A stretch of DNA of 51,041 bases from Candidatus Saccharimonadota bacterium (GTDB lineage Bacteria; Patescibacteriota; Saccharimonadia; Saccharimonadales; Saccharimonadaceae), in assembly GCA_017511865.1 (NCBI GenBank), contig JAFWIQ010000006.1, positions 1-51,041 on the forward strand. The letters run 5' to 3'. The position numbers and the translations under genes are program-made. How positions within the stretch are numbered: position 1 is the first letter of the stretch; every line of letters begins with the position of its first letter. Shown here one piece after another: positions 4,996-25,909 of the stretch. A model generated the notes under the pieces. It saw only the letters and a list, made by a program, of their open reading frames with translations, did not search any database and was not told the DNA's origin.

Positions 4996-5865
4996 TTACT
5001 TTTTTGTAACGCCGGTTAGCTTATATTCGCCGTCTTCTTCAATAAACTTAAATTCATAGATAGAATTCTCTGTTTTTAAACTTTCCATATCGAGATCAGG
5101 ACAATTATAGGCACTGCTGTCACAATTAGATAAGCGCTCACCAAAGCTTGTGGCTTCTGTAGCATCAAGATGGAAGACTGATGCGAGAGCAATAAACCCA
5201 TCCTCACCAGCTTCAACACTTGCAATATCTACATAAAACCCAGCCGGACTGTATCCACAACCAAGACCTCCTAGATATTTAACCCTAAAACTATCGGCCT
5301 CTTCAATATATTTAGCCTCCCCTATCCCCAACACATTCAAATCATCATAATCTTCTTTTTTTAAGTCGTTAGAATTTCCGAAATATAGATGATTTTTTTC
5401 ATTAATTTCATCGTAGCTAATAGTTTTGTATTCACATAAACCATCACAGTCGTTATATTGCATTTCTTGAGTATTGAAGAAATATTTCTTAATAATAAAA
5501 CCTAGTTTAAATCTATCACCGAACTCTTCGTGGCCAAAAAGACTTGTCACCGTATTTCCGCCACAACCAGAATTGTTAAACTCCTTCACGCCATATTTAT
5601 CGTCAAGGACTTCTGCAATACTACTTTTTGACGGTATTTCTTTTTTTGTATCACTATTAGTGTCGATTGCTGTATTTGTATCAGTATTATTGGCAACCTT
5701 ATTGTCAATTTTGTTAAAAAACATGCCATAAACACCAAACCCAATACCACAAGCTGCCACGATACATGCAATTGCCGTAGCAATTTTTAATCCATTACCG
5801 CTATTCTGCTTAACGCTGTCCACCACAGGTGCTACTGGTGCGCCAGCGTCTGTATTTTGTTCCAT
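4996..5865 (-). CDS. anchored extracytoplasmic protein of unknown function
   Basis: A 289-residue protein I cannot assign. A short Pro/Ala/Val-rich N-terminus (about 1-25) precedes one membrane segment (about 27-49), then a Thr/Asn/Asp-rich linker with repeated TNT/DTN units (about 57-75), then an acidic globular domain of about 200 residues. That domain has eight or nine cysteines (for example GCGG, DCDGLC, CGYS, NCDSSAYNC), which suggests disulfides outside the cell. The ATG is preceded by AAAGGG. The overall plan (proline-rich tip, membrane segment, external domain) is like that of the protein at 45652-46767. A weak extended -10 (TGTTATCCT) lies 33 bases upstream. Confidence 0.7.
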   Translation of the reverse strand: MEQNTDAGAPVAPVVDSVKQNSGNGLKIATAIACIVAACGIGFGVYGMFFNKIDNKVANNTDTNTAIDTNSDTKKEIPSKSSIAEVLDDKYGVKEFNNSGCGGNTVTSLFGHEEFGDRFKLGFIIKKYFFNTQEMQYNDCDGLCEYKTISYDEINEKNHLYFGNSNDLKKEDYDDLNVLGIGEAKYIEEADSFRVKYLGGLGCGYSPAGFYVDIASVEAGEDGFIALASVFHLDATEATSFGERLSNCDSSAYNCPDLDMESLKTENSIYEFKFIEEDGEYKLTGVTKK

Positions 5866-6156: not shown

Positions 6157-6789
6157 TTAAGACTTCGGATAATAGATTTCAACGGTGATACTGTAATCAC
6201 CATCGATGTTCTCCGTCGCCGTCGACATGAAAGCGAAGGAGAGGGTGCCAGTAGTGTTCTGGCTGATGGTGCCGAAATAATAGTCCGACGCCACCATCAG
6301 ACCGTCGCTCTCCTGATACCAGGGACCATCGCCATCGCTAAAAATAATGAAATCTCCAGCATTATCCGTGGTACCGGTAATTTCAACCCCTACAACCAAA
6401 GCCTCTGCGGCTTTCTCCGCTTCGGGGCCCTCCAGCTTGAGGCGAAACATCAGCGGAATGTTGTCGACATCTCCTTTGTTGATGGCAACGGTATACATTG
6501 CCGTCCGGCTGACTCTGGCGCCATAGGCGTCGGACCAGATTCCACATTCACCAAGGCTCAGACTCTGAACATCGACGAACGGGAACTCCTGCTGCTCGTC
6601 GTTGACATAAGAGCCGTCAATCCTTAATAAGTTGTCCGTCGACGCATGGTTCACACCGAAGGTGCCGTGACCAGCCGAGAGACTGAACCAGTTGCCAGTC
6701 AGGCCGGCAGCGGCAGCACCGATAATCATTGATGCGACGACGATAATAGCCGTCATGGATGCGAGGATAGTTTTCTTCATAATTTTCAT
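6157..6789 (-). CDS. secreted protein of unknown function, atypical base composition
   Basis: A 210-residue protein with a clear signal peptide: KKTILAS, a long hydrophobic core, and a likely cut after GAAAAG or IGAAA near residue 27. The mature part is rich in Gly, Thr, Asp and beta-type residues and holds one cysteine (GECGIW). The order of small hydrophobic secreted leader, FSLSAG stretch and beta-rich domain recalls TasA/camelysin-type fibre proteins, but I see no decisive motif. Five 60-base lines counted by hand (6181-6480) average 52% GC, far above neighbours (27% in one line of the previous gene). It lies behind a perfect promoter and a leader of about 225 bases. Its ATG overlaps the stop of a 34-codon ORF (ATGA). 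Confidence 0.75.
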   Translation of the reverse strand: MKIMKKTILASMTAIIVVASMIIGAAAAGLTGNWFSLSAGHGTFGVNHASTDNLLRIDGSYVNDEQQEFPFVDVQSLSLGECGIWSDAYGARVSRTAMYTVAINKGDVDNIPLMFRLKLEGPEAEKAAEALVVGVEITGTTDNAGDFIIFSDGDGPWYQESDGLMVASDYYFGTISQNTTGTLSFAFMSTATENIDGDYSITVEIYYPKS

Positions 6790-6890
6790 AATATAGTACC
6801 CCCCATTGAAGGCGACCCCACATTAACAGATAGATTTTGCGCATCAAATGAAACACAACACCATTTCTGTAATATAAGATCGATTTCCAT
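6786..6890 (-). CDS. possible 34-residue leader ORF coupled to the secreted-protein gene
   Basis: The ATG at 6890 lies exactly at the inner end of a 54-bp palindrome, and the ORF runs 34 codons (starts MEIDLILQKWCC) to a TGA that overlaps the next ATG as ATGA. AGGT lies 5 bases upstream, within the palindrome arm. It has no recognisable domain. Coupled translation of the next gene is the most economical reading, but it may be chance. Confidence 0.4.
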   Translation of the reverse strand: MEIDLILQKWCCVSFDAQNLSVNVGSPSMGGTIL

Positions 6891-6941
6891 GAGAGACCTA
6901 CTCTATAAATAATATTTTATTTACGAAGTAGGCCACTCATG
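6888..6941. promoter_or_regulatory. 54-bp imperfect palindrome in the leader of the secreted-protein gene
   Basis: Bases 6888-6941 pair around a centre at 6914.5, with 21 of 27 positions complementary. The outer arms CATGAG..CCTACT match almost fully, and so does the AT-rich core AAATAATATTTTATTT. On the minus-strand mRNA it hides the start and AGGT of the 34-codon ORF in one arm and holds the 7-codon ORF in the other. No T tract follows, so it is not a terminator. It could also be a dyad operator. Confidence 0.6.
6917..6940 (-). CDS. possible 7-residue leader peptide
   Basis: ATG at 6940, then codons for MSGLLRK and TAA, lying wholly inside the first arm of the palindrome on the mRNA. This is the layout of leader peptides in translational attenuators. 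No strong ribosome site precedes it (TTGGGAAATTC), so this rests on position only. Confidence 0.3.
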   Translation of the reverse strand: MSGLLRK

Positions 6942-7020
6942 AATTTCCCAATAACAAAAATCCTTCGTTGCCTAAATGAACCTTTTAATGTTCTATAAGC
7001 TCAAACAAGCTTACACCCAC

Positions 7021-7049
7021 ATTATACCACATATGCTTATTTTTGTCAA
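7021..7049 (-). promoter_or_regulatory. consensus promoter TTGACA-17-TATAAT
   Basis: On the minus strand a perfect -35 TTGACA (7044-7049), a 17-base spacer and a perfect -10 TATAAT (7021-7026) with TGG extension. It is the best sigma-70-type promoter in the window. Start of transcription is expected near 7014, giving a leader of about 225 bases before the gene at 6789. The rest of 6790-7114 holds the leader ORFs and palindrome, and I see no further gene there. Confidence 0.85.
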
Positions 7050-24114: not shown

Positions 24115-24828
24115 CTAGGCTTTATTTTTATCTTGAATTTGACGATATTTTTTTACACCTTCACGTGCTGCCTCGGTCTGTGCTTCCTGCTTGGAATGTC
24201 CAGTTCCAGTGCCCTTCAAAACGTTGCCCACATACAGACCAACAGTAAAAACTTTATCATGGTCAGGACCATCTTCCTTTAATGTTTTATAAACCGGCGT
24301 AATCCCATCAATCTTTTGCGCTAGTTCTTGTACATAAGACTTTGGATCCCTCCAGGTTCCTTCCTCCAAAATAGCATCAATTTTTATTAAAATATGTTTC
24401 TTGATAAAATCTTTAGCCGCATCATAACCTTGATCTAAATAAATCGCCCCAATTACCGCCTCAAAACAATCCGCCATTATTACTTCATGTGCCCTCTCTG
24501 AACCATTTTTCTCGCCCCTAGATAATCTAACCAAGGGTTCATAACCAAGCTTTATGCCAGCCTCACCAATAGATTCTGTTCTGACCAGTGCCGCCCTAAG
24601 TGCAGTCATAATTCCCTCAGGTTCGTCGTAATTCCTATACAAAAAATCTGAAGAAACTAATTCAAGCACCGCATCTCCCAAAAATTCCAACCTCTCGTTA
24701 TGCTCATGAGTTTTTTTATGCTCATTAACATAGCTACGATGCGTCAATGCTGTAATTAATAAATCTATATCATTAAATTCAAATCCTAATTTATCTTTTG
24801 CAAACTGCTGATATGCCGCCCTATCCAT
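24115..24828 (-). CDS. rnc: ribonuclease III
   Basis: Double-strand-specific endoribonuclease that processes rRNA precursors and structured RNAs. 237 residues. The catalytic domain has the signature NERLEFLGDAVLEL with its Glu and Asp, and DCFEAVIGAIYLD carries the second metal ligands. A dsRNA-binding domain (about 155-230) has DPKSYVQELAQK and GTGHSKQEAQTEAA. AGGAGG precedes the ATG. It follows the NUDIX gene in one unit with rpmF and nusB. Confidence 0.96.
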   Translation of the reverse strand: MDRAAYQQFAKDKLGFEFNDIDLLITALTHRSYVNEHKKTHEHNERLEFLGDAVLELVSSDFLYRNYDEPEGIMTALRAALVRTESIGEAGIKLGYEPLVRLSRGEKNGSERAHEVIMADCFEAVIGAIYLDQGYDAAKDFIKKHILIKIDAILEEGTWRDPKSYVQELAQKIDGITPVYKTLKEDGPDHDKVFTVGLYVGNVLKGTGTGHSKQEAQTEAAREGVKKYRQIQDKNKA

Positions 24829-24855: not shown

Positions 24856-25464
24856 TTAATAATCACCCGAACGAACTTTCTTCTTCGCCAAAAGCATTAA
24901 TTTTTCGATATCTTCATATTCAATTACGTCAAGCGCTTCGGAAAAAGAAAACCATTTAATCCCCTTCATCCATTTTTCGCCAATCAAAGTTTCATGTGCA
25001 TCTAATGCCTGCACCAAATAAATCTGCGTAGTCATCAAAACCAACTTGTCCATCCTGCGATACTTAAAATGAATCTTTCCCAACCAAGTCAAAATCGATA
25101 CATTTTTCAATCCAGTTTCTTCCTCAATCTCTCGCCTAGCCGTCATTTTTGCCGTTTCTCCAGGCTCAATATGACCTTTAGGAATAGTCCATCTTTCCTT
25201 AGAATCCTGAATCAACAAAATCTCAATATCTTTCCTATCTTTCGTGAATCTAAAAACAATCCCACCCGAAGTTGGCTCCCTGACAATCGACTGGATTGCC
25301 GCCTTCTTCCTAAAAACAGCTGACCGAATCTTATCAAAAGCCGACTCTTTTACCTTTTCTGTCGGCAAGGCCTCTGGGACCTTTAATCTTCTCTTTTCTA
25401 GTGGTTCGCTAGGCCTCGTCTTCCTTTTTATCGGACCCTTCGCTAGATTTTTTCTCTGATTCAT
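24856..25464 (-). CDS. NUDIX hydrolase
   Basis: A 202-residue protein with a NUDIX domain from about residue 60. The NUDIX box runs from [11 protein letters not shown] to REIEEETGL and has the full G-x5-E-x7-RE-x2-EE-x-G pattern. The substrate is unknown; the IPKGH lead-in is common in Ap4A or diphosphoinositol-type and general house-cleaning enzymes. The N-terminal 45 residues are very basic ([16 protein letters not shown]) and could bind nucleic acid. From the ATG at 25464 it overlaps the nusB end by 56 bases, which is long for this genome; a later, non-ATG start cannot be excluded. Confidence 0.85.
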
Positions 25465-25909
25465 GACTTTTCTCTTCAACAATTCCGAGCTTCTTGAATG
25501 CTGTTCCAAGTACCCCGTTTACAAACTTAGAAGAATTCTCTGATCCAAACGCTTTTGCAAGCTCCACAGCTTCATTAATTGCCACCTTCGGCGGAATGGA
25601 ATCTCTGCACTCTGAAAGCTCGTATAATCCCATCCTTAGAACATTTCGATCAATCGCCGCGATTGAGCTGATAGGCCATTCGGGCGCAATCGGAGCCAAA
25701 ACCGCATCCAATGTCTCAAAATTCTTTGCCACATTATGTGCCAAATTATAGACAAATTCAGTATCACCAAGTGCTTTTTCGTATGGCTCAATGTTTTTTG
25801 CGATAATAATATCCAAATCGACGTCTGGATCCTTTGCAGAAGTCCGAAGTTCATACTCGTATAAACTTTGCAAAACAATTACTCTACCTAAATGTCGATT
25901 ACTAGCCAT
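25409..25909 (-). CDS. nusB: transcription antitermination protein NusB
   Basis: NusB works with S10 in rRNA antitermination. 166 residues: [16 protein letters not shown] at the start, [14 protein letters not shown] and [27 protein letters not shown], all typical. After about residue 145 a charged tail ([17 protein letters not shown]) is added and overlaps the next gene. Adjacent to rpmF upstream. Confidence 0.95.

Follow-up and report, generated by a model that had tools for sequence, protein, structure and literature searches.

A folded leader RNA with a boxA-like motif precedes unrelated orphan genes in gut Saccharibacteria

The leader of a gene for a predicted secreted protein of 210 a.a. 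in a Candidatus Saccharimonadota genome is a divergent member of an undescribed family of folded-RNA leaders of gut Saccharibacteria. Leaders of this family stand before many unrelated orphan genes. They share a layout of consensus promoter, small hairpin (P1), the motif GNACNTTAA, linker, long hairpin of about 22 bp (P3), often a second long hairpin (P4), and a Shine-Dalgarno (SD) sequence held in base pairs. By analogy with leaders of phage lambda and of rRNA operons, control is probably exerted by Nus factors and/or RNase III. The gene lies in a stretch of 51,041 nt (contig JAFWIQ010000006.1), which is called the window throughout. The parts of the window leader are as follows:

7021..7049 (-): promoter TTGACA-17-TATAAT, with TTGACA at 7049-7044, TATAAT at 7026-7021 and the genus-wide spacer AAGCATATGTGG
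6994..7015 (-): P1, a 9-bp hairpin at the expected RNA 5' end, in a boxB-like position
6983..6993 (-): boxA-like motif GAACATTAAAA, 13.0 bits on an rRNA-leader matrix from other saccharibacterial families (p 0.0012)
6948..6982 (-): linker, which holds an anti-SD in about half of the family and none in the window leader
6882..6947 (-): P3, the palindrome of the preliminary description, a 25-27-bp hairpin with the place and size of the covarying P3 of relatives
6815..6880 (-): P4, a second long hairpin in the whole-leader fold
6799..6814 (-): SD of the main gene, GGGGGG (6804-6799), paired in the fold with GCCTTC (6814-6809)
6917..6940 (-): MSGLLRK mini-ORF inside P3, judged incidental
6786..6890 (-): 34-codon ORF over P4, judged incidental, with no Pfam match
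6157..6789 (-): main gene, 210 a.a., with an N-terminal hydrophobic segment and of no known family

The promoter and the palindrome reported in the preliminary description are both present, the promoter on the minus strand at 7049-7021. The palindrome folds as a long hairpin of 25 bp over 6943-6886 (-29.4 kcal/mol, z -8.8, with none of 200 shuffles as stable), or of 27 bp over 6947-6882 in a second analysis. The entire leader reaches -78.5 kcal/mol (z -6.95), and no shuffle folds as well. The SD of the main gene has a mean pairing probability of 0.78 through a local hairpin, its partner GCCTTC lying immediately upstream. P1, the boxA-like motif, P4 and this small hairpin with the gene's own SD had been overlooked. 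Judged by the shuffle comparisons, the promoter and the folding go well beyond chance and the mini-ORFs do not.

Translational attenuators of the erm and cat type combine a short ORF with a stem near the translation start. The leader had been read as one of these, in which ribosomes on the MSGLLRK ORF open the stem and the 34-codon ORF couples translation to the main gene. All of the parts exist in this single sequence: the 7-codon ORF (ATG AGT GGC CTA CTT CGT AAA TAA, 6940-6917, minus strand) with GGGA standing before it, the stem near a translation start, and the 34-codon ORF, the TGA of which overlaps the ATG of the 210-a.a. ORF as ATGA. On the other hand, neither mini-ORF occurs in any of the other 41 leaders of a 42-leader family set, that of the closest gene homologue included, and no mini-ORF of any kind is conserved across the 42. 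Both are also expected by chance: among dinucleotide shuffles of the window leader, 95% contain an ATG ORF of 5-20 codons, 28% have one of 30 codons or more, and in 7% an ORF of 20 codons or more runs into the ATGA overlap. The palindrome covers the start of the 34-codon ORF and reaches neither the start codon nor the SD of the main gene; since the main gene has an SD of its own, coupling through the 34-codon ORF is not required. We judge both mini-ORFs incidental. Unlike erm/cat attenuators, the window leader has no conserved leader peptide, inducer or resistance gene. Attenuation of this type is very improbable and was rejected because the mini-ORFs are unconserved and at chance level. What survives of the earlier account is the leader itself, which is real, folds strongly, follows a perfect promoter and belongs to a family in which masking of translation signals is a theme. 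Conservation among relatives, which that account had proposed to examine, is absent for the mini-ORFs and present in the family for the long hairpin, which is kept with compensatory changes. The closest gene relative (G063) has no ATG mini-ORF, yet keeps a long hairpin. No close relative of the window locus was found.

The promoter core TTGACNNNNTTAAGCATATGTGRTATAATG occurs 82 times, with at most 2 mismatches, in 56 of 174 congeneric genomes, and a reversed-pattern control gave 0 occurrences. The exact pattern was found in 33 stretches of a genome-contig collection, all from Ca. Saccharibacteria and many labelled as ruminant digestive tract. Many genes with the core have short leaders; in a subset the leader is structured, common to its members and about 180 nt long. 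Within the genome of the window, the promoter and early leader recur on contig C6 before an unrelated gene, at 80% identity over 88 nt (E 3.9e-15 with the promoter; 87% over 31 nt, E 0.002, without it), so that the two leaders share promoter, P1 and boxA. A third copy in this genome (L226, C2:53897-54015) precedes a 204-a.a. ORF, with a gene of another leader-associated family (KENSI type) just downstream. In another genome (L092, G133 C15), the C6 gene has a homologue behind the same promoter, with a short leader that lacks the long hairpin, and leader and gene are thus separable.

Covariance models were built from 11 leaders (R1, alignment A3, covering the motif to the start codon only, with the promoter excluded) and from 29 leaders (R2). 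R1 has matches in 37 and R2 in 47 of the 174 congeners. Among 392 genomes drawn from the order, matches are confined to one family and six genera, the weakest of them marginal. About 50 of 63 leaders were found without using the promoter; 58 of the 63 nevertheless have it with the exact 17-nt spacing (48 with TTGACA, 53 with TATAAT). The downstream genes fall by blastp into about 20 unrelated families, mostly unannotated, with only scattered matches in Pfam, PHROGs, NCBIfam and PADLOC. The window leader scores 14.2 bits (R1) and 16.7 bits (R2), in both cases through the motif alone. It has the promoter with 17-nt spacing, P1 followed by the GNACNTTAA motif, a long hairpin and a masked SD, and is without the linker anti-SD. 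A known RNA family was rejected, as the window leader has no Rfam match at the gathering score; ten leader loci run against Rfam returned tRNAs only. A MITE or other dispersed repeat was likewise rejected, the palindrome occurring once in the genome. Literature searches on Saccharibacteria with riboswitches yielded no report of such leaders, and those on Patescibacteria with structured RNA found nothing.

Across 42 leaders, the P1 regions fold better than shuffles (p 1.7e-10), and P1 typically ends 1-2 nt before the motif. P3 lies about 27-42 nt after the motif; 96% of its alignment cells are paired, and two-sided changes are seen in 16 of 21 pairs. Its covariation score is 0.596 against 0.336 for shuffles, and the signal collapses in slid controls. 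This score comes from an alignment fitted to the model (A6), and an independent MAFFT alignment (A3) gives the same picture. The long hairpin has therefore undergone compensatory evolution in the relatives. The P3 of the window differs in sequence from the others and, taken as 27 bp, begins 47 nt after the motif start, slightly beyond the 10-90% range of the family. A putative, mutually exclusive alternative hairpin pairing the boxA-like motif with the linker was noticed by eye in several members.

The SD is predicted to be paired with a mean probability of 0.76 across the 42 leaders, frequently with a partner 25-33 nt downstream of the motif start. Duplexes between linker and SD average -9.6 kcal/mol; shuffling the linkers gives -7.4 and swapping the partners -7.95. 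In 20,000 re-pairings, no set equalled that of own linker-SD pairs, by a statistic that ignores relatedness among members. SD/anti-SD complementarity is thus a property of the relatives, the linker of roughly half of the members being an anti-SD for the gene's own SD. In the window leader, the linker duplex reaches -4.1 kcal/mol, no better than shuffled. The pairing of the SD and the specificity of its complementarity would also suit a switch in which a ligand, temperature, a small RNA or a protein unwinds the helix of SD and anti-SD. The conserved top of P3 might then serve for recognition, and the likeness to boxA would be incidental or secondary. This alternative has a rather low probability: about half of the members, the window leader among them, have no linker anti-SD, no conserved junction resembling a ligand pocket was seen, and the unrelated downstream genes suggest no common metabolite. 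A DNA element, such as a recombination site of gene cassettes, is also conceivable for an inverted repeat that recurs before unrelated and comparatively GC-rich orphan genes. It is the least credible explanation, for the leaders inspected sit between promoter and start codon in one orientation, and pairing of the SD would be meaningless for a DNA site.

The motif that follows P1, WGNACNTTAA, matches the boxA of saccharibacterial rRNA leaders (GAACAUUAAAA in the window and GAACGUUAAAA in rRNA leaders); GAACATTAAAA of the window agrees with GAACGTTAAAA of rRNA leaders at 10 of 11 positions. In other saccharibacterial families, rRNA leaders carry GAAC(G/T)TTAAAA or close variants between the promoter and 16S. 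With a matrix from 11 rRNA sites, the motif is the best site in 33 of the 42 leaders. The match is weak in some family members, and the single rRNA boxA site from the genus of the window differs (ATAGTTTAACA). Because the motif helped the model find some of the 42 leaders, leaders chosen by promoter alone provide a cleaner test. In these, boxA is enriched (4.85 versus 2.00, p 4.6e-6), while the reversed matrix gives p 0.89 and downstream sequence is not enriched. Hairpins before rRNA boxA fold only modestly better than shuffles. The gamma-proteobacterial boxA consensus is GYTCTTTAANA (PMC5725501). Four short leaders behind the same promoter (L076, L096, L097 and L103) have a perfect GYTCTTTAAAA, the general bacterial boxA, and boxA may therefore be a mark of the promoter class and not of the structured leaders only. 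An mRNA stabilizer without a switch, in which the 5' and long hairpins protect or insulate the transcripts of highly transcribed orphan genes, would agree with the very strong promoter and with the 5'-terminal hairpin of nearly all members. It is unlikely, as SDs masked by their own specific partners and an rRNA-like motif would be superfluous for protection.

All 20 genomes examined for NusB encode it, and all 12 examined for RNase III encode that enzyme. In the window, the two genes lie about 0.6 kb apart on one strand, and they are also close together in several other genomes:

25409-25909 (-): nusB, with the NusB match at 25490-25897
24115-24828 (-): RNase III gene

In the favored reading, which is about as likely as not, the family is a type of cellular leader patterned on the lambda N and rrn leaders, with hairpin and boxA, an RNase III-type hairpin and an occluded SD. 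It would operate in the following manner. A near-consensus promoter starts an RNA that opens with a small hairpin and then boxA, as in rRNA operons. Next is the long hairpin, which has about 22 bp in the family and 25-27 bp in the window leader. The SD of the gene is held in base pairs, by the linker anti-SD in about half of the family and by the local hairpin in the window. NusB-S10 would bind boxA and load a Nus complex, which could keep polymerase processive through the untranslated leader and/or hold translation off. Action on the long hairpin by RNase III, or by some other factor, would then free the SD, as in the lambda N leader. The parts and their order, the covariation and complementarity in relatives, the likeness to rRNA boxA and the presence of NusB and RNase III are observed. 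For the family we infer Nus binding, cleavage and a direction of control that may be either activation or repression.

Several known systems resemble this leader in part. Downstream of promoter P2 in the E. coli rrn operons, boxB comes first, then boxA, then boxC (PMC10250234). The family leader has promoter, hairpin and boxA in the same order, and its motif is close to the saccharibacterial rRNA boxA. Unlike in an rrn leader, what follows is an mRNA whose SD is masked and not 16S rRNA. The lambda nutL site is about 200 bp upstream of N; the intervening RNA is highly structured, and N together with Nus factors represses N translation (PMC5725501). RNase III reportedly modulates this repression (Wilson 2002, as cited there). 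The parts of the family leader thus stand in the order of an rrn start joined to a spacer like that of lambda N. The likeness extends to the strong promoter, a boxA with a neighboring hairpin, a long hairpin before the SD and a gene start about 200 nt on, and both RNase III and Nus factors act at the lambda leader. In contrast to the single lambda leader, the family genes are cellular, many and unrelated, with Nus action and cleavage putative; the hairpin precedes boxA, as in rrn, and there is no known N-like protein. Known boxA-bearing mRNA leaders likewise have one to several targets per genome, including some genes unlinked to translation. Their boxA stands 6 nt from the SD and they have no long hairpin, whereas the family boxA is found about 120-200 nt upstream, within a structured leader common to unrelated genes. 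In the E. coli adhE-type leader, RNase III reportedly frees a masked SD. The family leader has a comparable masked SD and double-stranded RNase III-type target; the adhE type concerns a single gene and has no boxA, and cleavage of the family leader is a putative step.

The protein encoded behind the window leader has a sole relative in a direct search of the genus, that of G063, at 35% identity. The G063 gene has the same promoter and a structured leader of similar length with a different long hairpin. Through blastp chains (WIN-G063, E 8.6e-30; WIN-G081b, 3.6e-4; G063-G061a, 0.004) the window protein is linked to five relatives, all behind such leaders. Searches of Pfam, PHROGs and NCBIfam returned no family for it, and it has no sequence match in the PDB. 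Its AlphaFold2 model is poor (pLDDT 58) and has no Foldseek match below E 0.001, and no fold is therefore claimed. A defence gene was rejected, as PADLOC gave no match, and a TasA-like resemblance was set aside as an impression only. The GC content of leader-driven genes (0.52 for window 6157-6789 and 0.50 for L002 816-1400) exceeds that of their surroundings (about 0.42), hinting at acquisition. The neighbor of the leader gene in the window (4996-5865, minus strand) encodes a protein that begins MEQNT. Its first ~60 residues are up to 75% identical in many congeners and the remainder differs, which suggests a shared membrane anchor with variable outer domains. In another species (L123, G157 C2:308033-308173), a family leader is the element next upstream of a gene of this MEQNT type, and a second promoter-like sequence lies between the two.

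Gene control in this bacterial group is nearly unknown; a 2024 review calls the mechanisms of patescibacterial differentiation completely unknown, with regulation of translation likely to be key (PMC11665869). Common to about 20 unrelated, almost wholly unannotated protein families, the structured leader would be the marker of a regulon. Tentatively, this may be a saccharibacterial regulon of orphan, partly secreted proteins, in which an rrn-type promoter, hairpin and boxA are coupled to an RNase III-sensitive hairpin, the SD being unmasked through the latter, and output would track Nus-factor and RNase III status. If so, its proteins would be made, for instance, at the switch between free and host-attached cells, and Nus/boxA control of mRNAs would extend to the Patescibacteria. 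The leader sequence can also guide the search for co-regulated genes of unknown role.
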